Shown here piece by piece: positions 3,185 to 29,688 of a stretch of DNA of 29,688 nucleotides. This DNA comes from a virus: positions 1 to 29,688 of the IMG/VR virus record IMGVR_UViG_3300025889_000655. One strand, given 5' to 3'. The notes beneath the pieces are model-generated. The model did no database searches. It had not been told where the DNA came from and worked only from the letters and a program-made list of their open reading frames with translations. The translations under genes and the position numbers were made by a program. How positions within the stretch are numbered: position 1 is the first letter of the stretch; the number at the start of each line of letters is the position of its first letter.

Positions 3185-4125
3185 TTCTCTATCTCAACGC
3201 TGTCAACCATATCTTGCATACTAGAAGATAGTTTGTTGTAATCAACCTCTCCTGAATTAATGGCTGCCTTTAATTCCTCCGGAGTATAATTTGCCATGAT
3301 CGAAGCGTCAGAATAATTCACACCTCCGGTAGCCGGTGTGTTAAATCCTCCGGTGGGAGATGGTAATCCACTCAACCCATCTCCTATTGTACTAATGCTA
3401 TCTCCAAACTTGAATATGCCATCAAACATTCCTTGCTCATAGGCAAAGGCTACACCAACTACAAGTACAACAGCAATCAATCCAATAATAGCTACTTTCA
3501 TGAAACTGTTTGTTCCTTTGAGTGGTGTGTTTGTAATCTTCTTATGCTCATTGTCTAGCCTTTGGATTCTTGGAAGTAACTCTCCTAGAAAACTTGGATT
3601 TGTGGCTATCAAATCCTCCTGAATAAAATCAGTAACTTTTCGTACAGGAGTTACGATACTGTCAACATCAAGTTCTGAAAGATAGTTCTTGATACTTCTA
3701 ACTTCGTCAGGGTACTTACCCTCTTGCTGTCCAAACTCTTGAATCAAATCAGATATGCTGTGAGGATTGAAATCGGCTTTCTCACGCTTTCCTAAAACCC
3801 TTAACACATTAAACATCATGCGATTTACTTTTGGTAATGAGTTCTTTTGCAGCACTATTTCAAGTTCCTTTGTTTCGGGTTTGATTGAATTAAAATGAGT
3901 AGTATCATATTGAATAACCCTAAATGATTTTTCTAGTGTAACTCTGTGAATTAATATCCTAGCATTTTTCAAAGAGAAAGCAAAAAACTTGCCATCCAAA
4001 TCGGCAACAAAATAATCTCCTATGGTGTGTTTAATGGGAACATAATGAAGTCGATCTTCGCTGTCGGAGATTTCAGCAGTAATGTATTTAGAAGTAAGTT
4101 TATCCCTCCCATTAAGCACACCCAT
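3181..4125 (-). CDS. Membrane-anchored structural protein, 314 aa
   Basis: Residues 1-200 are a soluble, probably cytoplasmic or virion-interior part with charged helices. A single membrane helix spans about 209-229 (MKVAIIGLIAVVLVVGVAFAY). The exterior tail is rich in Gly/Ser/Pro (GDGLSGLPSPTGGF) and ends in an acidic helical segment (YTPEELKAAINSGEVDY). A TATA-like box (4143-4157) lies 26 nt before the ATG, so the gene begins a transcript. The downstream 27-aa gene overlaps its stop. No family recognised; the position in the capsid block suggests a minor capsid or scaffolding membrane protein. Confidence 0.75.
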   Translation of the reverse strand: MGVLNGRDKLTSKYITAEISDSEDRLHYVPIKHTIGDYFVADLDGKFFAFSLKNARILIHRVTLEKSFRVIQYDTTHFNSIKPETKELEIVLQKNSLPKVNRMMFNVLRVLGKREKADFNPHSISDLIQEFGQQEGKYPDEVRSIKNYLSELDVDSIVTPVRKVTDFIQEDLIATNPSFLGELLPRIQRLDNEHKKITNTPLKGTNSFMKVAIIGLIAVVLVVGVAFAYEQGMFDGIFKFGDSISTIGDGLSGLPSPTGGFNTPATGGVNYSDASIMANYTPEELKAAINSGEVDYNKLSSSMQDMVDSVEIEN

Positions 4126-4142
4126 AGGCTAATCTAAAAATC

Positions 4143-4157
4143 ACGAATTATTAAGTA
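4143..4157 (-). promoter_or_regulatory. TATA box for the 314-aa membrane protein gene
   Basis: Minus-strand ATACTTAATAATTCG is centred about 26 nt upstream of the ATG at 4125, giving a leaderless or nearly leaderless transcript. It directly follows the 4159-4189 hairpin. Confidence 0.5.
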
Positions 4158-4158
4158 T

Positions 4159-4189
4159 TCCCCCCTAATCTTGGCACAAGTAGGGGGGA
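4159..4189 (-). terminator. Perfect 9-bp GC-rich hairpin ahead of a promoter
   Basis: TCCCCCCTA (4159-4167) and TAGGGGGGA (4181-4189) are perfect inverted repeats around a 13-nt loop, which itself contains CTTG/CAAG. It lies between the end of the basic-protein operon (4257) and the promoter at 4143-4157. This is the same arrangement as the hairpin at 2277-2307. Confidence 0.55.
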
Positions 4190-4256
4190 GTCATTTGGAA
4201 ACGAGGATGTGCTTACACAATGACAAAAATAATTTAAGAAAATAATAGATAAAGTT

Positions 4257-5213: not shown

Positions 5214-5687
5214 ATGATTCCGGAGGGCACACCGAAATACAATGACCTTATCGATATAGTAATTCAAGCCTCACAAAAAACAGTTGATGTACAACAAAAA
5301 GACGGTACTATAACTAAGGAACAAATACTCGATGAGGATACAGTATGGTGGAAAACAAACTCTGTTGCAGCAAATACATTTGGTAGATTTGCTTTTGAGT
5401 TAAAAGAGTTGGAGAGATGTGCTTTGAGAGCTCCTGACAATATGTGTGAGGAGAGGGCTAGAAATTTGGGTTATGAAATTATGGAGATTGGAATATCTTA
5501 CCGTAGAAGTATAGACGCTAAATCATCAGAGTCTCAAAGGGATAAACAAAACTCACAGAGTACATTGATTGATAAGATTAACAAGAATAAGGTTGAGAGA
5601 GTCTATACCATGAAAGATAAGGTAAAGGGATCTCTCTTTGATAGTATCATTGGCAGAGACGCAGAGAGGGATAGTGATAATGATTAA
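5214..5687 (+). CDS. Hypothetical soluble helical protein, 157 aa
   Basis: I choose ATG 5214 over ATG 5193 because a TATA box is centred 25 nt upstream of 5214, making it leaderless. The product begins MIPEGTPKYND, is largely alpha-helical and highly charged, has two Cys (ERCALRAPDNMCEE) and ends in a charged tail (RDAERDSDND). It opens a three-gene plus-strand operon with two small membrane proteins and stands alone against the surrounding minus-strand virion genes. No family recognised. Confidence 0.75.
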   Translation: MIPEGTPKYNDLIDIVIQASQKTVDVQQKDGTITKEQILDEDTVWWKTNSVAANTFGRFAFELKELERCALRAPDNMCEERARNLGYEIMEIGISYRRSIDAKSSESQRDKQNSQSTLIDKINKNKVERVYTMKDKVKGSLFDSIIGRDAERDSDND

Positions 5688-5886
5688 CGTTAAGACTCTG
5701 TACAAACTCTCATTAATTGGATGGGGATTACTTTGGTTTTCAGGTGGATGGCTTACATTAAACGCAATACTTGGTACTCCTAGATCATACCTAGACGCTA
5801 TTGGAATTGGCTGTGCTGCAATAGGTTTGGTAATAGTGATAAAGACTTTGGGAACAATAAAGAAAATAGATATTGAGATTGATTAA
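5680..5886 (+). CDS. Two-helix membrane protein, 68 aa
   Basis: The ATG at 5680 overlaps the preceding stop (ATGATTAA), so I prefer it to a longer upstream frame. Helices lie at about 9-29 (LSLIGWGLLWFSGGWLTL) and 38-56 (AIGIGCAAIGLVIVIKTL), with a short loop and a charged end (KKIDIEID). It is coupled to the 157-aa protein and followed within 3 nt by another membrane gene. Role unknown. Confidence 0.65.
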   Translation: MINVKTLYKLSLIGWGLLWFSGGWLTLNAILGTPRSYLDAIGIGCAAIGLVIVIKTLGTIKKIDIEID

Positions 5887-5888
5887 AA

Positions 5889-6005
5889 ATGTGGGATGAA
5901 AGAAAGAAAGAAAAAAGTTACCTGTTCACACAAAAAAGAATGATACTTTTAGTGGGTGGTTGGTTCGGGATTGGTTTCTGCTCGGCTCTTATACTTTTTC
6001 CATGA
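5889..6005 (+). CDS. Single-helix membrane protein, 38 aa
   Basis: The ATG at 5889 is two nucleotides after the preceding stop. A charged head (MWDERKKEKSYLFTQKR) is followed by one hydrophobic helix (MILLVGGWFGIGFCSALILF). The spacing suggests it is the third gene of the plus operon. It overlaps a minus-strand frame (5949-6077) tail to tail by 57 nt; one or both may be real. Confidence 0.45.
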   Translation: MWDERKKEKSYLFTQKRMILLVGGWFGIGFCSALILFP

Positions 6006-6077
6006 TTTGATACCAAAGTATGTCATAGCACCGATACATACAGGGTAAAAAGCCATTACAATATCTGCTAAACACAT
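5949..6077 (-). CDS. Single-helix membrane protein, 42 aa
   Basis: Minus-strand frame from ATG 6077: a hydrophobic helix (about 4-22, ADIVMAFYPVCIGAMTYFGI), then a basic stretch (KSWKKYKSR) and a polar tail (ETNPEPTTH). It follows the HNH cassette on the strand of the virion genes. It would be a normal small virus membrane protein, but it overlaps the plus-strand 38-aa frame. Confidence 0.4.
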   Translation of the reverse strand: MCLADIVMAFYPVCIGAMTYFGIKSWKKYKSRAETNPEPTTH

Positions 6078-6149
6078 GGGTTAAACTAACAATATTTACT
6101 AAATAAACTTTCAGAAATTACTTTTTTTGTGCCTATCTATGCCTAAAAG

Positions 6150-6181
6150 TTCTTTTCCCACATCTTCTTTAGGTCTTTCCA
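6150..6181. repeat. 32-bp direct repeat flanking the HNH cassette, copy A
   Basis: Identical to 6526-6557. On the minus strand it encodes WKDLKKMWEK plus the start of a codon and continues to N-F-stop (TAG at 6143-6145). It is an orphaned copy of the 3' end of the 6519-6677 gene. Confidence 0.9.
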
Positions 6182-6189
6182 ACAGGTGT

Positions 6190-6197
6190 TTTATAAA
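6190..6197 (+). promoter_or_regulatory. TATA box of the HNH gene
   Basis: TTTTATAAAA is centred about 26 nt before ATG 6220 and lies inside the cassette, so the HNH gene carries its own leaderless promoter, opposite to the surrounding genes. Confidence 0.5.
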
Positions 6198-6219
6198 ATT
6201 AGAATTTTTAAAATATTTT

Positions 6220-6522
6220 ATGTCAAGAATTATGGATTTAACGGAGGGATACCCTATAACATCACAAAACAAACATTGTATTCTATGTAGCGTGTACATG
6301 AATAAAAAACATTTACATTTACATCATGTCTCATATTTTCCTGAAAATGTGGTATATACTTGTAAAGATTGTCATGGAGAAATACATCGTGCTTTCAAAA
6401 GGCATAAACATTTAGCACCAAAAAAAGGAGACGCTGAAAAATTCTATGGTATTGCTTGGAATAATAATTCATTGTTTATGAAAAGAAAAAAGATGAATAT
6501 AGTTAATGACTTAAGTGTTTAG
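6220..6522 (+). CDS. HNH endonuclease, 100 aa (free-standing homing type)
   Basis: The core is C-I-L-C ... H-L-H-L-H-H-V-S-Y ... N-V-V-Y-T-C-K-D-C-H-G-E-I-H: two CxxC pairs for the structural zinc and the HH...N...H pattern of the beta-beta-alpha metal site. These enzymes cut DNA, and free-standing forms drive their own spread. I start at ATG 6220 because of the TATA box 26 nt upstream; a longer frame from 6127 would run through the 32-bp repeat and looks non-coding. The C-terminal half is basic (KRHKH, KKGDAEK, MKRKKMN) and may bind DNA. The gene is antisense to its neighbours, bounded by 32-bp direct repeats, and its stop overlaps the stop of the opposing gene. Confidence 0.8.
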   Translation: MSRIMDLTEGYPITSQNKHCILCSVYMNKKHLHLHHVSYFPENVVYTCKDCHGEIHRAFKRHKHLAPKKGDAEKFYGIAWNNNSLFMKRKKMNIVNDLSV

Positions 6523-6677
6523 AAATTCTTTTCCCACATCTTCTTTAGGTCTTTCCATGTAGGGTTTTTGGTATTTACCTTACGCTTTTTGGGATGTTTC
6601 TTTCCAAAACAATCTGCACAGATACCGGCTATGAAAAAGGATTTGTGGTTAAGACATTCCTTACAGAGCCTATTCAA
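6519..6677 (-). CDS. Small zinc-ribbon protein, 52 aa, with duplicated 3' end
   Basis: Starts at TTG 6677, overlapping the end of the ATPase gene. Two pairs, C-K-E-C and C-A-D-C, separated by about a dozen residues make a zinc ribbon. A basic linker (GKKHPKKRKVNTKN) and a Trp/Lys-rich end (WKDLKKMWEKNF) follow. The last 12 codons are duplicated 376 bp away on the far side of the HNH cassette, so the gene seems to have been cut and its 3' end restored. It is probably an accessory to the ATPase upstream. Confidence 0.65.
   Translation of the reverse strand: MNRLCKECLNHKSFFIAGICADCFGKKHPKKRKVNTKNPTWKDLKKMWEKNF
6526..6557. repeat. 32-bp direct repeat flanking the HNH cassette, copy B
   Basis: Identical to 6150-6181 but in use: it forms the last codons of the 6519-6677 gene. 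Beyond the repeat both copies still encode N-F-stop, with different synonymous codons (AAC TTT TAG against AAT TTC TAA). Confidence 0.9.
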
Positions 6678-7734
6678 TTAAAACTCCGTCTAATTTCTTT
6701 TTCATCTTGGTTACTGTTGGTGTAAAGTTGTAATGGAGTGCTAAATCCTCTAGGTTAATTGTTTTCATCTCTAAGGCTTTGTCCAAATATCTCCTACATG
6801 AAACATAGTTCTTGCTATAAGTATTGACTCCTTGTTCCTTTAGAAATTGTTTGATTATTGCTTTGACCACAGGAGGGCTATATTTTTCCTCATACTCTTT
6901 GATGAATCTGTCAACATCAATATCAGAAGCCTCCTGATTAGCCGATGAGCAAATACTACAAATTGGATCTAACCATGCCCTAGTTGGAGATATTATCATA
7001 CGGAGTGTTTGATTATTGTAGAACAGTACAGGAATAAACGGATCTCTCCATTTGTAGGCAAATGTCTTTTTATTTCTCATCTTTGCAGGAGATGGAAAAT
7101 ATTTTTTGATAACTCCTTTCTGTCTAGCCCTTGAAAAGAAATCTACCAACCCCATCATCTTTGTTCCAACGATACCCTCCATGTTTGTATCCTCCTCACT
7201 TCCAACAGTAAGAAATAATCTAAAGTCAGCCATTCTCAAATATTTGTCCAATCCTTTAGAATAGTGATAATTGTAAATTAGAATAATTTTAACATCTTGT
7301 CCTCCCTCCAAATGTCTAATCTTGGTTACTGATTCTTTTACCTTGTTAATTGCTGTCTTGTTATGTTTTGCGTCAAGAAAAGACACATCATCAAAAATCA
7401 GGATATAGTTACATGGTTTGAGATTTTTCAAAGTTTCCTCAAAATTCATTAAATCCCTTTCATAGAATTTTTTGACAGCCCACGCAATACTAGATCGTTT
7501 ATGGATGGAATGTGCCAATGCTTCGGCTAGTGTTGTTTTTCCACTATTCATGTCTCCAACTAGACCGATTCTTGTAACATCGATTTCCATACTCCAATTT
7601 ACAATTTCATCAACTGCTGCAAGAAATGACTCATTCCTTATCATGTTCTCTCCTTTCCATTTTACAATCGTTGGTAAGAATTTGTCTTTCTTTTCAGTAA
7701 CCTGTACAGATACTTCTCTTTCAATTAATGGCAT
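6670..7734 (-). CDS. P-loop ATPase, possible genome-packaging ATPase, 354 aa
   Basis: Walker A G-D-M-N-S-G-K-T-T lies at 60-68 and Walker B I-L-I-F-D-D at 111-116, with a possible sensor region around IYNYHYSKG. The C-terminal third is helical and may be a DNA-binding or winged-helix part (KEYEEKYSPPVVKAIIKQFLK). The FDD form of Walker B and location at the head of the virion gene block recall A32-like packaging ATPases, but an initiator or partition ATPase is possible. The start overlaps the preceding stop (TAATG), tying it to the 202-aa Zn protein. An internal CTGTACAG palindrome (7702-7709) lies in codons for V-Q. The ATPase call is firm; packaging is inference. Confidence 0.82.
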   Translation of the reverse strand: MPLIEREVSVQVTEKKDKFLPTIVKWKGENMIRNESFLAAVDEIVNWSMEIDVTRIGLVGDMNSGKTTLAEALAHSIHKRSSIAWAVKKFYERDLMNFEETLKNLKPCNYILIFDDVSFLDAKHNKTAINKVKESVTKIRHLEGGQDVKIILIYNYHYSKGLDKYLRMADFRLFLTVGSEEDTNMEGIVGTKMMGLVDFFSRARQKGVIKKYFPSPAKMRNKKTFAYKWRDPFIPVLFYNNQTLRMIISPTRAWLDPICSICSSANQEASDIDVDRFIKEYEEKYSPPVVKAIIKQFLKEQGVNTYSKNYVSCRRYLDKALEMKTINLEDLALHYNFTPTVTKMKKKLDGVLIE

Positions 7735-12207: not shown

Positions 12208-12792
12208 GTGAGAGCAAAATCAAACTATATCGATCCAGAGCAATTCAAACTTATTATCAATAATTTAGGCTCGTTAAATTTACGCAAGTGGTCAACTGTC
12301 GATGTTGAATTTTTATTCAAAATTTCTTATTGGTGTGGTCTCCGTATGCTGGAGGCTACCAAATTAAAAAAGGAGGATTTTGATCTAGTAAATCGTGAGG
12401 TTTATCTTGGTCTCACAAAGGGTAAAAAAAATCAATATGCCCCTATTCCTGTTCCTTTCATCCCTGAACTAAATCAATACCTATTATCAAAACCTAACGG
12501 TCAATTACTCCCAAAATGCAACCCTCAAATCGTTAGACTATGGACTAGAAAGTTAGGTAAATTACTTGATATACCGGCATGGACTACTCCACAGATGGAG
12601 ACAGGAGAAAAAACACGCACTCATATTTTTAGAAAATCTATCGCAAAAGATATGCTCTATGGCACACATGGGCAGAAAGCACCATTAAACGTTGTACAGA
12701 AGCATTTACGACACTCTGATCTCAATACCACCTCCAAGTATCTACAAGTAAGTATTGAGGATGTAAAGAATTATTGGGATACGACAAACTGA
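12208..12792 (+). CDS. int: Tyrosine recombinase (integrase), 194 aa
   Basis: Catalytic residues of the tyrosine-recombinase family are in order: Arg46 (YWCGLRMLEA), Lys71 (GLTKGKKN), His139-x-x-Arg142 (THIFRKS), His169 (HLRHSD) and Tyr178 (SKYLQ). The protein joins and resolves two att sites, inserting the circular genome into the host chromosome. At 194 aa it is short: little more than the catalytic domain, with almost no N-terminal arm-binding or core-binding domain, as in some archaeal integrases. GTG start with TATA about 25 nt upstream, so probably leaderless. No tRNA-like att core is evident nearby, so the integration target is unknown. Confidence 0.93.
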   Translation: MRAKSNYIDPEQFKLIINNLGSLNLRKWSTVDVEFLFKISYWCGLRMLEATKLKKEDFDLVNREVYLGLTKGKKNQYAPIPVPFIPELNQYLLSKPNGQLLPKCNPQIVRLWTRKLGKLLDIPAWTTPQMETGEKTRTHIFRKSIAKDMLYGTHGQKAPLNVVQKHLRHSDLNTTSKYLQVSIEDVKNYWDTTN

Positions 12793-19500: not shown

Positions 19501-22500
19501 CTAGATTTTTACCTTAACTTTGGTATCTCTCTTTACTTGTTTGGATACTTGTTTGTCTCCAAAGATAACAGCCTCTCTCCTGAACAATCCAACGATACTA
19601 TCAAGTTTAGATGATCCCAAAAATTCAATACCGGTATCACTTTTCTTTTTACCCTTTTTCTTTTTACCATTATCAGGAGATGGAAGTCCACCTACAACCC
19701 TACGTCTAGTTGGTACGATTGGAGGATTGTCCAATTTGGTTTTAGCCTTTGCTTGGAATTTGAACATTGGTCTTGATCTTAGTTTAGGTCTTTGAGGTGT
19801 TGGTGTTTTTAGTTGTTGTCTTGTTCCTAGTTTTGGAGTTTGTTTAGTCTCTAGTTTTGGAGTTACTTCGGTAACAAGTTTAGGAGATATTTTTGTTGAA
19901 AGTTTTGGAGATATTTTTGTGGTAAGTTTAGGAGATACTACTGTGGTAAGTTTTGGAGATATGATTGTTTGAGTCTTTGATATAATCTCTGATTTTGTTT
20001 GAAGAATGTTTTCAGCCTTTACCTCTACTTTGGTTTGAGGTTGCTGCAAAGTAATTTCTCTAGGCTTTACTGTTTCTCTCTTTGGGAATGTTGGAATGAT
20101 AGTTGTCGATGATACAGTTTCGGCAGCAGTTGGTTGACTTGTACCTGACAATCCACCTGTGGAAATCAATGGATCTTTACTTGGTTCAGGATCACTTAAT
20201 GCTGACTTTTTCTTGATAATGATCTCTCCTTTACCTTTACCCAAACTGATTTGAGTTGATTTGAATGGGCTTTCCTCTTTTACCACTTGAAGCAAAGTAC
20301 CACCTTTGCCCTCTACCTCCCTTAATCCTCCCTCATCTGATTCTGTAAATTCTCTAGGCTTTTTGAAATCTCTAGGTTTGTTAAAGTCTCTAGGCTTTGG
20401 TGCTGTTGTAGGTCTAGTAAATGATAATGGAGATTTACTTGAAGTTGGTAATCCGAATTTTGGATTCTCGACTCTTTCCTGAAATTCCTTAAAGGCTTTC
20501 ATACCTGTCTCGATTCTTCTTGATGATTCAGGAACAACTTCTCCTGTACCCGTACCTAGTTTGATTGATGTGTCAGGTCTAAAGACTCCTTTTCTTGGTG
20601 TAATCACATTTTCAGATATTGTATCTTGGAATCTTCTAAATGCGTTTAATCCAATTTCAGCTTTTGAAGTATATACTGTTGAGACACCTCTACCAACATT
20701 AACTGATGTGTCAGGTCTAAAGACTCCTTTTCTTGGTGCTGATGGTACAAAGTCAGGAGGCTGTCTTATCAAACTTTGAAAGTCCTTAAAGGCTTTCAAA
20801 CCAATGGCATATTGATTTGTAGCAATTCTACCTACTGTACCACCTAAACTAATGCTAGTTGTTTTCTCGGCTGTCCTAAATGCAGAGGCAGTATATGGCT
20901 GACCACTACTAGCAGTTAATCTTTCATAAGTTGGATTCACTCTTGGAGATTTTACATTCACAGCAGTTTTTGTAAAACTCATTGGAGAGTATCTTGGAGA
21001 TTGACCACCTGTCATTATCTTTTCATAAGTTGGATCAACTCTTGGAGACTTGAATGACACAGGAGTTGGAGATGTACCTTTAACAGTTGACACTCTTTCA
21101 ACAAAAGGAACATCTTTGTATTTGATAGCAGTTCTAGGTACAACATCTCTGTATGGAAAATTACCTGTGGGTTGAACATCATTAACCACTAACTCATCTA
21201 CTTGGAATTTCTTGTATCTTTTTTTATCCAAAATTTCTTGTCCAATCTTTTTGAGATCTAAGATATTAGCTCTTGATACACCTCTAGCAGCGTCAGGAAT
21301 TTCCTGTGATCTTAAACCAACTGTATTGATAATATCACGATCAGTTTCAGCGTAAATTTCATTAGCCCTTGAAATATTTTTTGGTTGAGGTTGTGGTTTT
21401 TCAGAAGCTAGTTTGATTTGTTTGGCAATATCTGACTCACGTTGTAATCTTTGGGCTGTCTTTATTTCTTGTAAGATGTTAAGGTTTGGAGGTTCAGGTG
21501 CTTTTGAGACAGAAGTTATTCCCTTTAGTCTAAAAAGAACCGGACTTTGTGAAGCCTCATTAATAGCTGTAACAGTTGCCTTTGATACAACACCATAGTT
21601 AGGTGCGATAACGGTGTCAGTAATTGGTGCTTTAACTAACCTTTGTGATAACGTACCATAGTCAGATGGCTTTGGTGTAACACTAACAGCAGCCGGTTCA
21701 AATCCTTTTGGTAAGTCTATCTCATTTGCCCTAGAGTATCTAACCAATCCTTGTGGTTTAGCAGCCACTTCGGTTTTAACAGCAGCAGCCACTTTAGGAG
21801 TTATCTTTGCTTCACTAATTGCAGCAGCAGCTAGTGTTGGTGTTATCTTTGGAATTAACTTTGGTGCTATACCTGTACCGATTCTTCTACCAATATCATA
21901 GATACTTTTACCTGTGGGTACAACTAAACTTACTACCTCTCCGGCAAAAGTTCCACCTCCGTATTCTCTTATGTATTGTTGAGATTGAGCAGATACCTCA
22001 CCCCATGATTTGAATCTATTATCCTCAAAAGAGTATGGAAATATTATTGCGTCTCCGGTTTGTCTTACAGGAGTTACAGTATATTGAGTTGGTTTTCTAC
22101 CTAATGCTTGATCAACTAATGGTGCGACAGTTTGTTTTCCTAAATTATCAAGTGTTGATAATCCCTCAACTACTGATCTCGTTACACCAATAGGAAATTT
22201 CAATGGATCAATTATTTGATCCAATACAACATTACCGGTTTTAAATTTGGCTGCCTCATCTAAGAATTTTGATACACCGATTTGAGCCTCCTGTGTTGGT
22301 GTGGTCTTTGGTTCAGGTCTAAAGATGTATGATAAACTACCGGCTACTGTTTGTACCGGTTGATCATATCTTGCAGCAAATTTTTGAGCTGATTCATAAG
22401 TCTTGAAACTTCTTTCTTTGCCATCAGGAGTTGTAACTGTGAACATTGGTTTAGGAGGATAAAATGATCCCTCTTTAGTTGGAGAGATTTGGCTGATAGC

Positions 22501-23682
22501 CTCACCTGATAGTAAAGGACTAACCATACTTTTGTTTGGCTGTTGAGCCTTGAAAGGATCTGTCGTTGTTCCTGTGCCAATATTAGATGAGATTCTTTGT
22601 GATGGTATTGGTTTTGGTATTGGTGTAGGTTTTTGTAATTCAACCATGTTGTAAGCTGACATTACACCTGATTTGTTTAATGCCTCAACATCGATATTGA
22701 TTCCTAAATCTTTTAGGACAGCAATGTTTGTTTGAGTTCTATTATAATCTGCAATTTGCATTTGTCTTAACTTTTCAGCCTCTCCTGTTGTTTGATAACC
22801 AAACATGGCTGTCTCTGTTGTAAATCCAATTCCAAAGTCTTGAGCTTTGGCTGCTGTACCTTGTGCCACAGTAACACGATCAGCCACATTTGTTCCAATG
22901 GTTAATGTTTGTGAAACCATTGTAGCACCTATACCAGCTCCACTCTCTAAAGAGCCTGTACCACCTAATCTTTGTAATTCAGTTACTTGGGCTGCTTTGA
23001 TTTGTGCGTTGCCTGAAGCTCTTAATCCGGCACTCATTCTGCGTGAGGCTTCAATATTACGTCTATCAGCCTCTACAATTTTTGAATATTCATCTGAACT
23101 TCCACCAAAGTAAATGTATTCGGCTCTACCCAAGATTGTGTTATCCCATCTACCTCCACCGGCTGCCTGATAAGCTGATTCAAATCTTTTGTATTCTTGG
23201 AAAGCTTGTTTGGCTTCTGTACTTGCTGTTTTCTCAAAAGCCTCTTTACCATACATTGTCTCCTTGTATTGCCATGCGATTTGCTTGTATTCTGATTGAG
23301 TTAACGCACTAGCTAGTTTTGCTTGTGCCTCCTCATTTTGTTGTCTTAATTGATTAATAGAATTTTCAACTGACTTGTACATTTCAGGACTACCTTTACC
23401 GGCTCTAAGATTTCTTTGAATTAGTTCTGATCTTTTTTGAGATAACCAAGCTTCCTCAATTTTTAATTCGGCTTCAGCCTTTGCCTTTGCTTCGGCTTCA
23501 GCCTTTGCCTTTTGTTCCTGTATTTTTTTTGCCTCTACTTCTTCTTCTGCTTTTAGTCTTTCCAACTCTGCTTGTTGTTGCTCGTATAATGCTAGGTCTT
23601 TTTCATATTGTGCTTTGGCTTCCTGATATTCTATAATTCGTTCTGACTCGTATCGTTGAGCCTTATCTTGAGCCAATACCAT
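19501..23682 (-). CDS. Large repeat-rich coiled-coil protein, 1,393 aa
   Basis: Residues about 8-90 are an Ala/Glu/Lys coiled coil (KAKAEAEAKAKAEAEL). The next 230 residues are helical. Then come long low-complexity Pro/Thr/Lys stretches with repeated units: SPRVDPTYE and SPRVNPTYE near 877-910, two copies of GVFRPDTS followed by GLNAF-R-R-F-Q or GMKAF-K-E-F-Q near 987-1070, a PRDF triplet, and seven short x-PKL-x-T units near 1238-1280. The basic end (KLRSRPMFKFQAKAK, GKKKKGKKK) could bind DNA. No signal peptide or clear membrane helix. TATA overlaps the divergent promoter at 23705-23717. Probably an internal virion, tape-measure-like or assembly scaffold protein; unrecognised. Confidence 0.85.
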   Translation of the reverse strand: MVLAQDKAQRYESERIIEYQEAKAQYEKDLALYEQQQAELERLKAEEEVEAKKIQEQKAKAEAEAKAKAEAELKIEEAWLSQKRSELIQRNLRAGKGSPEMYKSVENSINQLRQQNEEAQAKLASALTQSEYKQIAWQYKETMYGKEAFEKTASTEAKQAFQEYKRFESAYQAAGGGRWDNTILGRAEYIYFGGSSDEYSKIVEADRRNIEASRRMSAGLRASGNAQIKAAQVTELQRLGGTGSLESGAGIGATMVSQTLTIGTNVADRVTVAQGTAAKAQDFGIGFTTETAMFGYQTTGEAEKLRQMQIADYNRTQTNIAVLKDLGINIDVEALNKSGVMSAYNMVELQKPTPIPKPIPSQRISSNIGTGTTTDPFKAQQPNKSMVSPLLSGEAISQISPTKEGSFYPPKPMFTVTTPDGKERSFKTYESAQKFAARYDQPVQTVAGSLSYIFRPEPKTTPTQEAQIGVSKFLDEAAKFKTGNVVLDQIIDPLKFPIGVTRSVVEGLSTLDNLGKQTVAPLVDQALGRKPTQYTVTPVRQTGDAIIFPYSFEDNRFKSWGEVSAQSQQYIREYGGGTFAGEVVSLVVPTGKSIYDIGRRIGTGIAPKLIPKITPTLAAAAISEAKITPKVAAAVKTEVAAKPQGLVRYSRANEIDLPKGFEPAAVSVTPKPSDYGTLSQRLVKAPITDTVIAPNYGVVSKATVTAINEASQSPVLFRLKGITSVSKAPEPPNLNILQEIKTAQRLQRESDIAKQIKLASEKPQPQPKNISRANEIYAETDRDIINTVGLRSQEIPDAARGVSRANILDLKKIGQEILDKKRYKKFQVDELVVNDVQPTGNFPYRDVVPRTAIKYKDVPFVERVSTVKGTSPTPVSFKSPRVDPTYEKIMTGGQSPRYSPMSFTKTAVNVKSPRVNPTYERLTASSGQPYTASAFRTAEKTTSISLGGTVGRIATNQYAIGLKAFKDFQSLIRQPPDFVPSAPRKGVFRPDTSVNVGRGVSTVYTSKAEIGLNAFRRFQDTISENVITPRKGVFRPDTSIKLGTGTGEVVPESSRRIETGMKAFKEFQERVENPKFGLPTSSKSPLSFTRPTTAPKPRDFNKPRDFKKPREFTESDEGGLREVEGKGGTLLQVVKEESPFKSTQISLGKGKGEIIIKKKSALSDPEPSKDPLISTGGLSGTSQPTAAETVSSTTIIPTFPKRETVKPREITLQQPQTKVEVKAENILQTKSEIISKTQTIISPKLTTVVSPKLTTKISPKLSTKISPKLVTEVTPKLETKQTPKLGTRQQLKTPTPQRPKLRSRPMFKFQAKAKTKLDNPPIVPTRRRVVGGLPSPDNGKKKKGKKKSDTGIEFLGSSKLDSIVGLFRREAVIFGDKQVSKQVKRDTKVKVKI

Positions 23683-27500: not shown

Positions 27501-29688
27501 AACATAATTTGTTACACCGTTACTTGTTGTATGAGTGCCAATATCAGTTGAGGTTGCTGTTCCGTCATAATATCTACAATTCATATTATTATTTGCCTGT
27601 GTGGTTATACCGATTGCATTTTGAGCTACACCAACCCCACCAAGTGTGTCAGTGATTAAGAACTCAGTTCTGTGTGAGAGATTGTTATTACTTATTTTTG
27701 TAATATCAATATCAACTGTCCATGTTTGCAAGTTAGCACCTTGACTTGTATAGTAATCATAATATGCAGAAGTGTCAGTTGTGTCCAAATCCCCATTATA
27801 ATAAATTCTATTATTTGCAGTATCGATACTTATTTCTGAATCAGTTACAGTCCAGCCAGTTGAAGTTCCAAAGTTAGTTGAGTATGATGGTGCAGTTGCT
27901 AGTTTAACAAAATTTGCACTTGTTGTTCCAACATTGAAAACGGCACCACCATTTGAATTTGTGAATCCGAATAGTTTGGTGTTGGTTGGTGGGTTGTAAA
28001 TTTGGTTTTCTAAAGTTGAACCTGTTTGTTCAAAATTATAACTCATCACTAAATTAGTAGTTGGTACTGTGGTTGTACCACTGCCTGAATTATAAATTGA
28101 AGAAATTTCAGAACTTGATAATGCTCTTGAATATGTTAATGTTTGATCAATTTGACCATTCCAAAAAGCCGTTCCAGATGTTAATCGTGCACCAATAAAA
28201 TGATCAGTGTTTGTAAAGTACCCTGCACCACTTGTCACTAATGATGTATCTTGAGCTTTTTGTACACCATTAACGTACAATGTTAATGTATTTGCTGTTG
28301 AATCTCTAACACACGCTACATGATACCAAACCCCTACACTAGATGTGGCTGAATCATAAATATCATCTACCGTAGTACCTGTACCATAAGAAACACAATA
28401 GAATTTCCCTGCACTATTCATTCCAAAAAATTGATCACCATTACTACCGTCGCCTGTTTTAAAGAATATATTATCTTCAGTATTAGTATCGGTATTTACC
28501 CATGTTGAAAGTGTATATGAGTTTGAATTATCAAATGGGTTTGAGGGTAAATCTACATAATCATTACTTCCGTCAAAATCCCAAGCATAGGAATCTACTT
28601 TGCCTGTTGCACTTGTTGTTACCCCACCAATTTGTGTACCGTCTAAAGTTGAATCTCTAGTCAATGCTTGTTTCACCCAACTACCAACCGTAAATGAATC
28701 AGTAGCGTCAGGCAATAGGCTAGATGTTACTTCGAGGTTTGGTGTGGAAATTGCGTCAGAGATTTGACCTGTGGTTGTTGTTCCAGCATTTGCTGTAACT
28801 GAAATATTGTTAGTTGATTTATCTGGAATTATATCTTCTGTTGTGGTAGTCATATCATTATAGAATTTGATATTAGAAACTGAACCGATTAATTCTGAAT
28901 CAGAAAATCCTTGTATACTGGTCACTTTGATATACCGTAATCCTGTAAGACTAGACGGAATTGTTATTGTTTTTGACTCTAATAATGTTGAATATCCTGA
29001 ATCAGAATAAAGATTAATTGTAAAAGATGTTGCTGAATCTCTTTTCATTTCAACATAAAGTGTTTCTGCTTGTGCTTGTCTTGTAAACAATGTTGTTGTT
29101 TCATTGTTAGGTGCTGAACCGTCAGTTTCTACTGCAAATATGTCAGTCTTTGTATTATCAACTCTAATCATCAATCCCAAAAAGTCTTGTGAATCATTGA
29201 TGTTGCTATTTATACTTCCAATTCCATGTGAAAAGAAAACATCATTGACAGCACTACCTTGTGTAACTGTATCAATGTCTAACTGTGAACGAATTATCCA
29301 GTTAGTATTTGAAACAGTTGTCAAATCATAATATGCTTGTGCTAAATGTGAATTGGTTGACGGTACTGAAAAATCAATTTCTTCATTTGTTGTATCTATG
29401 GTTACTTGTGTTCCAGTTCCACCAGTTGTCCATGAACTCGTTGACAGGTCAGCAGTATATGTTGGTGTTGCTGAAACTGTTTCAAATCCATGTAACAACA
29501 ATTCATTATCAGTAAAGTCAACTGGTGTTGTACCACCATTGTTTGGTAGTTCGGTCATAACATATTGATTTAATGTTCTGTACACTTTGTAGCCAGTAAT
29601 AGATGAACCACCATCATCAACTGGTGCTGTCCAATCTAATTCAATAGGTATTCCAGTTACGGTTTGTAAGTTAGTTGGGGGTTGTGGG
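24588..29688 (-). CDS. Giant secreted Fn3/LamG surface protein, remaining part (to residue 2,188)
   Basis: Continuation of the gene that starts at 1593. The GTG near 29585 is not a start; it is Val524 inside an Fn3 strand. Residues about 854-1025 form a LamG/concanavalin-like domain (DGSNDYVDLP, TWVNT, WYHVACVRD, NGQID, SRALSSSEI). A second, partial LamG-like unit ends near 1370. Residues about 1372-1420 (NTYYYYVKSTNAVGDSG) are the second half of the Fn3 domain begun at 492, so the LamG block is inserted inside an Fn3 fold. About six Fn3 repeats follow (PPDAPTGL, LPDAPQGL, VPDAVTNL, PPAPTGLTAS, LPNAVTDL). The last 75 residues hold about three membrane helices and the end AERITR, anchoring the protein. 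Probable receptor-binding adhesin or spike. The next gene overlaps by ATGA. Confidence 0.92.
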   Translation of the reverse strand, partial: PQPPTNLQTVTGIPIELDWTAPVDDGGSSITGYKVYRTLNQYVMTELPNNGGTTPVDFTDNELLLHGFETVSATPTYTADLSTSSWTTGGTGTQVTIDTTNEEIDFSVPSTNSHLAQAYYDLTTVSNTNWIIRSQLDIDTVTQGSAVNDVFFSHGIGSINSNINDSQDFLGLMIRVDNTKTDIFAVETDGSAPNNETTTLFTRQAQAETLYVEMKRDSATSFTINLYSDSGYSTLLESKTITIPSSLTGLRYIKVTSIQGFSDSELIGSVSNIKFYNDMTTTTEDIIPDKSTNNISVTANAGTTTTGQISDAISTPNLEVTSSLLPDATDSFTVGSWVKQALTRDSTLDGTQIGGVTTSATGKVDSYAWDFDGSNDYVDLPSNPFDNSNSYTLSTWVNTDTNTEDNIFFKTGDGSNGDQFFGMNSAGKFYCVSYGTGTTVDDIYDSATSSVGVWYHVACVRDSTANTLTLYVNGVQKAQDTSLVTSGAGYFTNTDHFIGARLTSGTAFWNGQIDQTLTYSRALSSSEISSIYNSGSGTTTVPTTNLVMSYNFEQTGSTLENQIYNPPTNTKLFGFTNSNGGAVFNVGTTSANFVKLATAPSYSTNFGTSTGWTVTDSEISIDTANNRIYYNGDLDTTDTSAYYDYYTSQGANLQTWTVDIDITKISNNNLSHRTEFLITDTLGGVGVAQNAIGITTQANNNMNCRYYDGTATSTDIGTHTTSNGVTNYVRLSYDGTTFTCDLMNSSRTSVSLSHSATVSGVDMSNARYIIISDRDNTNSSVNNVVIEFENLAVTPTNSMESTIISATGLTDNTSDFQHYALTRDGSSWTLYQNGQSVATATDSTDLGTVSGSHKINLDGAIDEYFIDSTALTSNEIQTVYDMGTEPTQIATTGTTPSYDDSGVVGGNTYYYYVKSTNAVGDSGFSAQATGLAGTPPDAPTGLSATIQNTATAPRDVFLQWSAPTNVGSGTLTGFEIWRDGSLVTTVGLISSYVDIVPTAGTYTYTVKAVSTHGTSVDSNSAQVTTPNLPDAPQGLTLSIDNPDPNPLTVTVTVSPPLNDGGSAVGSYNIYTSSDDVTYTLQASNVSNPSNITVPSAGVWYFKASAVNGVGEGNLSPSNLIGTPTVPSAVSDLAFTSSTPTTLSVNWTAPDNGGSAITTYKMFVDGIQVDTTTFTTYTFTGLTTKTNYDFTVVTTNNVGDSNSSNTLNETVWGVPDAVTNLTASSTLSSITLNYDAAVPYGYPVTGYKLERESPVGGGFTVLSANIGIVTTYTDTGLSPVVEYNYRITPLSSIGDGVSATINYTTLPPAPTGLTASSTITGNMDLSWTAPSPSTGVTGYHIQRADGVGNAYATIVADTGNTNTTYTDTGLTQGIVYVYRVAAITPFGESNYSNTYSMTTYYLPNAVTDLTVTTNNLLQFVLNWSQPTLYGTFTGYQLNYTTPAGVPQTIYSSSIQDTNTKISGFDPTVEFSFRVAPITIHGTNATGNIVTGQVTSQIEIGDITVSGQATPDTRDIVFTMESLDNTTNVITATFDPALELNCEISQPALGTTQEYPSISETLDGVDAYHEFTINNSAGNIVEIDCHDTTDNTITASYTLRTDEVGNNTTDSIISIQQIKDFTDGTLGGSDSIGGVSLIILAVGIIGMIGFNRTHPAIGIGMFVVVMGGARYFNLIGDIEGIIGIIALIIVLGVAGAERITR
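29562..29688. repeat. Terminal direct repeat (circular contig overlap), right copy
   Basis: Exact duplicate of the first 127 bases. It lies inside the coding sequence of the giant surface protein and should be collapsed when the genome is circularised. Confidence 0.93.

Follow-up and report, generated by a model that had tools for sequence, protein, structure and literature searches.

Duplicated zinc-ribbon gene ends around an HNH-type nuclease gene in a candidate virus of ammonia-oxidising archaea

The locus and its viral setting

The window, by which we mean the whole stretch of DNA that was analysed, comprises all 29,688 bases of the record IMGVR_UViG_3300025889_000655. On its minus strand an ATPase gene is followed by a zinc-ribbon gene, an insert and a small membrane-protein gene (Table 1). 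The HNH ORF, on the opposite strand, is the sole gene of the insert's 344-bp unique part, which contains neither an integrase nor a transposase. With a GC content of 27.3%, as compared to 36% for the genome, the insert belongs to the lowest 1% of segments of the same size. At its two borders lie two versions of the 3' end of the zinc-ribbon gene, one in use and the other orphaned.

Table 1. Features of the window discussed in the text
Feature	Position	Strand	Remarks
Small membrane-protein gene (MCLADIV...)	5949-6077	-	downstream neighbour of the zinc-ribbon gene in the relative L002 (empty site)
Native spacer, 65 bp	6078-6142		downstream of the orphan stop
Orphan, most simply the displaced native 3' end	6143-6181	-	WKDLKKMWEKNF-stop; ends AAC TTT TAG; core 6150-6181
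Unique part of the insert	6182-6525		344 bp; with one 32-bp core, a 376-bp insert
Predicted TATA box TTTATAAA of the HNH gene	6190-6197	+	exact; 30 to 23 bp upstream of ATG 6220
HNH-type nuclease gene	6220-6522	+	100 aa; ATG 6220, TAG 6520-6522; CxxC (20-23), HHVSYFP (35-41), CxxCHxxIH (48-56), GDxxKFY
Added 3' end, in use	6519-6557	-	WKDLKKMWEKNF-stop; ends AAT TTC TAA; core 6526-6557
Zinc-ribbon gene in use	6519-6677	-	52 aa; TTG start overlaps the ATPase stop; terminates in the added 3' end
ATPase gene	6670-7734	-	upstream of the zinc-ribbon gene; anchor in the searches for relatives
Tyrosine recombinase of the virus	12208-12792		outside the HNH insert

The first 127 bp of the window are repeated as its last (1-127 and 29562-29688), which indicates that the genome, of 29,561 bp, is either closed or terminally redundant. 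Apart from the ATPase, its proteins include an 89-aa capsid-like protein with two hydrophobic stretches, a tyrosine integrase, a D5-like primase and a PAPS-reductase-like protein. This protein set and the relatives found, among them a contig of a Nitrosopumilaceae MAG (L008), indicate a virus whose hosts are ammonia-oxidising archaea (Nitrosopumilaceae). By gene content and genome size it resembles the proposed Nipumfusiviridae, spindle-shaped viruses of Nitrosopumilaceae with genomes of 27-38 kb (PMC10866085), and it is a candidate member of that family: the ATPase, a zinc-binding protein and the 89-aa two-helix capsid-like protein are shared, as is the lack of a recognised family B DNA polymerase, none being recognised among the window ORFs scanned. 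Elsewhere in the window, a 1393-aa minus-strand ORF (19501-23682) contains a 35-bp exact direct repeat (20566-20600 and 20704-20738) that probably reflects internal protein repeats.

The duplicated gene end and the empty site in a relative

Among the direct repeats found in this region, the highest-ranking one extends, imperfectly, over 6144-6192 and 6520-6568. Its exact core, 32 bp at a spacing of 376, lies on either side of the plus-strand HNH-type gene, as the earlier note had described, and ranks third among the exact direct repeats of the window, behind the 127-bp terminal and the 35-bp coding repeat. Since the longest repeat obtained in 50 first-order Markov shuffles measured 17 bp, a chance origin was rejected.

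Each core forms part of a 39-bp segment that encodes, on the minus strand, the same 13 codons including the stop. In the copy in use these read TGG AAA GAC CTA AAG AAG ATG TGG GAA AAG AAT TTC TAA, and the orphan matches them codon for codon until its final AAC TTT TAG; the earlier note's statement that both copies encode the end of the zinc-ribbon gene, with these different endings, is exact. The two segments are 92% identical (36/39), the three differences being all synonymous and all situated in the final three codons. By tests picked post hoc, the probability that three of three differences fall at third positions is P = 0.031, and that of finding all three in the last 3 of 13 codons under a random spread is P about 0.0035. 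For N-F-stop to follow the core in random sequence of the same composition, P is about 0.002 (0.0018). As N-F-stop is nevertheless retained by means of other codons, the added end goes beyond an exact target-site duplication. Transposon-type exact duplication of a target site was hence rejected: homology continues past the core through the stop by synonymous changes, and there is no transposase. Judged from its codons, the added segment is a homologous 3' end under coding constraint, either borne by the insert or duplicated and subsequently drifted. The orphan was matched by tblastn with the zinc-ribbon protein as query, as residues 38-52 with 87% identity, and three codons ahead of its Trp codon the reading frame is closed by a TAA.

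Assemblers fail at repeats of read k-mer length, and the record is metagenome-derived, hence population variants with and without the HNH gene might have been stitched together at their common 32 bp. We consider such an artefact very improbable, given that the record closes on itself via the 127-bp terminal repeat and that a chimera would still require an HNH-bearing variant that ends in AAT TTC TAA, by which only the orphan side would become doubtful.

IMG/VR scans with the ATPase and neighbouring proteins identified only one relative, the 38-kb record IMGVR_UViG_3300025655_000107 (hereafter L002), with an ATPase 63% identical to that of the window (tblastn) and a zinc-ribbon homologue at 5740-5889 that is 52% identical. 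Here the order is ATPase, zinc-ribbon gene, small membrane gene, with no HNH gene between and no member of the HNH family anywhere in the 38-kb record. The site is therefore empty at the level of gene order, as known from this one relative, which is about 35% diverged in protein; the earlier note had proposed a search for exactly such an empty site in related viral contigs. The small membrane gene of L002 (MCLEPID..., ATG at 5983) was equated with that of the window by position and first residues (MCLADI and MCLEPI), with no BLAST match between the two genes.

The distance between the zinc-ribbon stop and the next ATG is 63 bp in L002. The corresponding distance in the window is 65 bp if the orphan stop is taken as the starting point, as against 441 bp for the stop in use. 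Most simply, then, the orphan would be the displaced native 3' end with the insert upstream of it, and the end in use the added one. This assignment is based on length and gene order, the spacers of the window and L002 having no convincing sequence conservation. The LKKxWE motif at the C-terminus of the zinc-ribbon protein is also conserved in L002, which suggests that retaining the C-terminus matters.

L002 has an additional 32-aa ORF with CxxC...CxxC (5659-5757; MFNPICTRCKKPFKGYYTKCNECIKEIFENDL) between the ATPase and zinc-ribbon genes. It is absent from the window, where the latter two genes overlap. Adjacent zinc-ribbon genes thus occur, and the orphan could in principle be all that is left of a degenerated tandem paralogue whose other parts were entered or replaced by the HNH gene. 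We think this improbable. The extra ORF of L002 is situated on the upstream, not the downstream, side and terminates in KEIFENDL, which does not resemble the repeat; the orphan has no zinc-ribbon coding ahead of its Trp codon, the in-frame TAA being only three codons away; and the spacing from the orphan stop to the ATG fits the single-copy order of L002.

Further searches for close relatives, with the zinc-ribbon protein, with a 24-bp DNA pattern derived from the repeat and in a phage collection, yielded nothing, and no close relative of the window was found in any of these screens, either with or without the insert. Genome contigs provided L008, in which no zinc-ribbon gene was recognised, and L007, which is cut before the zinc-ribbon gene. 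L007 (NYTT01000055.1) belongs to the same virus group, with an integrase 72% identical to that of the window, and is filed in a Flavobacteriales MAG; it is probably mis-binned. ATPase homologues of 33-35% identity in Nitrosopumilaceae genomes had no zinc-ribbon match alongside. Two of these loci, in Nitrosopumilaceae contigs of 209 and 520 kb (L013 and L014; G118 and G122), also have weak similarity to the 202-aa protein of the neighbouring gene and are likely integrated relatives of the virus group of the window.

The HNH-type gene and its family

Profile matches of the HNH protein to Pfam and PHROG are weak (HNH_5, E 0.018; endonuclease VII, E 0.0037) and lie below the Pfam cut-offs. The HNH catalytic and zinc motifs CxxC, HHVSYFP and CxxCHxxIH are conserved in the best-matching relatives, and those from Nitrosopumilaceae display the pattern CxxC...HHVxYFPE...CHxxIH...GDxxxFY (alignment A5). 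Structure prediction from the single sequence was unusable (pLDDT 44); a model based on eight sequences reached a mean pLDDT of 66. A PDB fold search with the latter gave no significant match, the best being a Geobacter HNH nicking endonuclease (E 0.59), which is no evidence on its own.

Upstream of the gene, the TATA box claimed in the earlier note is present as an exact motif. TTTATA occurs at the same distance, 30 to 23 bp, upstream of only two of the 1,120 ATGs of the window, and the predicted promoter would be suited to a leaderless transcript that begins near the ATG of the HNH gene. At the other end, the HNH stop codon (6520-6522, plus strand) overlaps that of the zinc-ribbon gene (6519-6521, minus strand). 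The HNH stop is therefore furnished within the added 3' end, which makes the HNH gene and the added end one physical unit.

The family is patchily distributed and rare. The alignment has eight rows, from the window and Nitrosopumilaceae genomes, to which three viral contigs (L046-L048) can be added, and members were detected in 9 of 400 genomes of the class. In L047 and L048, which are identical across the 8.1 kb compared, an HNH relative (3983-4225) together with two small ORFs intervenes between the genes for an ATPase and a VWA protein, which directly adjoin, without HNH, in L065 and L066. Counting also the window and its empty counterpart in L002, there are at least two sites at which the HNH family is present in one genome and missing in relatives.

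Flanking repeats like those of the window were sought at other HNH loci. A loose screen with fixed coordinates of 14 Nitrosopumilaceae loci revealed none, its sole hit being 17 bp in a GC-rich stretch of one locus (L023). Neither were any found at the three viral loci of the same HNH family, nor at 11 viral loci with a different HNH type, three of which lie near a contig end.

Origin of the insert and comparison with known systems

We propose that the HNH gene probably entered the 3' end of the zinc-ribbon gene as a unit ending in a homologous copy of the last 13 codons, by which the native end was displaced. According to this model a compact HNH gene with its own promoter would have inserted, in a Nitrosopumilaceae virus, into the zinc-ribbon gene as follows. 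The HNH nuclease, or another break, would open the empty gene near the Trp codon; the gene-side end would be repaired from an HNH-bearing relative, so that the 3' end of that relative and the HNH gene are copied in; and the far end, without homology, would be joined to the other side of the break, whereby the old 3' end would remain. The body of the zinc-ribbon gene would thereby run in frame into the added copy, and the original end would be pushed 376 bp downstream, to be kept as an untranslated orphan beside the native spacer. Because the insert brings a second copy of the last 13 codons, the zinc-ribbon gene stays whole. The earlier note's proposal that the cassette arrived with a replacement 3' end, keeping its target intact, is in large part supported by the duplicated ends, the empty order in L002 and the spacing; the copy itself may have come from a donor virus or from repair of the same genome. 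In favour of the model count also the low GC content of the insert, the predicted TATA box, the patchy distribution of the HNH family and the fungal mitochondrial precedent discussed below.

What speaks against this model is that the empty site is known from a single diverged relative, that the other HNH loci screened have no flanking repeats, that all short stretches of the inferred empty site persist in the HNH-bearing genome (see below), and that the 30 bp of the core upstream of the differing codons are identical. As the differences cluster in the last three codons, the 32-bp core could be recipient sequence, either duplicated or later homogenised. An alternative is thus that the recipient's own end, some 40 bp, was duplicated during insertion, by widely spaced nicks or by template switching between replicating copies, with the HNH insert being non-homologous and the synonymous changes arising later under coding constraint on the used end. 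The identical core would then indicate that the duplication is recent or has been homogenised, and the clustering of the differences at one edge is compatible with it. Nickases can leave nicks far apart, and the best fold match, although not significant (E 0.59), is a nicking enzyme. On the other hand, three changes within nine bases beside thirty unchanged ones would be an odd outcome of later drift. The known overhangs of homing endonucleases are much shorter than 32-40 bp. Overall we regard duplication of the recipient's own end as rather unlikely, and retain the entry of a unit with a homologous end as the preferred model.

A similar organisation is known from fungal mitochondrial DNA. Beaudet et al. 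2013 (PMC3630166) described that atp6, atp9, cox2 and nad3 of Glomus hold endonuclease ORFs with a foreign C-terminus fused in frame while the native one is displaced, and they cite an earlier case in atp6 of Allomyces macrogynus as well as Rhizopus atp9 and Mortierella cox2. Like these mORFs, the window has an endonuclease ORF in a protein gene, an in-frame replacement end with the native one displaced beyond the ORF, predominantly synonymous divergence and an insert-free relative, in this case L002 only. The fungal mORFs, however, encode LAGLIDADG or GIY-YIG enzymes, reside in organelles and replace 51-238 bp (Table 2 of PMC3630166) with C-termini that are 64-81% identical, whereas the window combines an HNH-type gene on the opposite strand, its own promoter, a replaced segment of 39 bp that is 92% identical, and an archaeal virus. 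Given the precedent in Allomyces and Glomus, the combination of a protein-gene 3' end with a free-standing homing nuclease, by which the earlier note set the insert apart from elements that restore a tRNA, is not unprecedented and no new principle.

The same note's comparison with elements that restore a tRNA gene holds by analogy, in that the 3' end of the interrupted gene is restored. Unlike tRNA-targeting integrative elements, the insert has no integrase, involves no tRNA and lacks an att core for a recombinase, and integration of the tRNA or integrase type was rejected since the insert is without an integrase. Free-standing endonucleases of T4 (seg and mob; PMC2988022) are located between genes or split them, as do mobE in nrdA of Aeh1 and mobA in gene 60. 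They share with the window a small free-standing nuclease gene beside or within a core gene that is missing in relatives; the portion of that source drawn on here describes no copied 3' end, and the nuclease of the window is a putative one, known from sequence. A literature search revealed no report of an end-replacing nuclease insert in a virus. As far as searched, the novelty lies in the archaeal-virus setting, an enzyme of HNH type, a gene placed on the opposite strand under a promoter of its own, and a replaced end that is very short.

The inferred empty site was also evaluated as a target. Its flanks were joined by script and stretches of the product were sought in the HNH-bearing genome. 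The shortest stretch missing from that genome is 34 bp (ATGGAAAGACCTAAAGAAGATGTGGGAAAAGAAC); all stretches of up to 33 bp persist, in the gene or in the orphan. If the insertion protects its carrier by disrupting the target, the predicted enzyme must therefore read at least 34 bp; if it does not, its target lies elsewhere, or it lacks activity or is no homing enzyme.

The 32-bp direct repeats should permit precise, scarless loss of the insert that leaves the native gene, and both alleles are hence expected in one population. More tentatively, the HNH gene may be a scarless mobile unit that bears the 3' end of its target, such that both entry and precise loss spare the gene, and a strategy known from fungal mitochondria may have arisen independently in a virus. 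Selfish nuclease genes usually spare their host gene by residing in introns, in inteins or at sites between genes. In a virus of abundant marine archaea, the locus would show a fourth route, whereby a protein gene has its end restored, and its 32-bp repeats offer a direct test of the mobility of the cassette.
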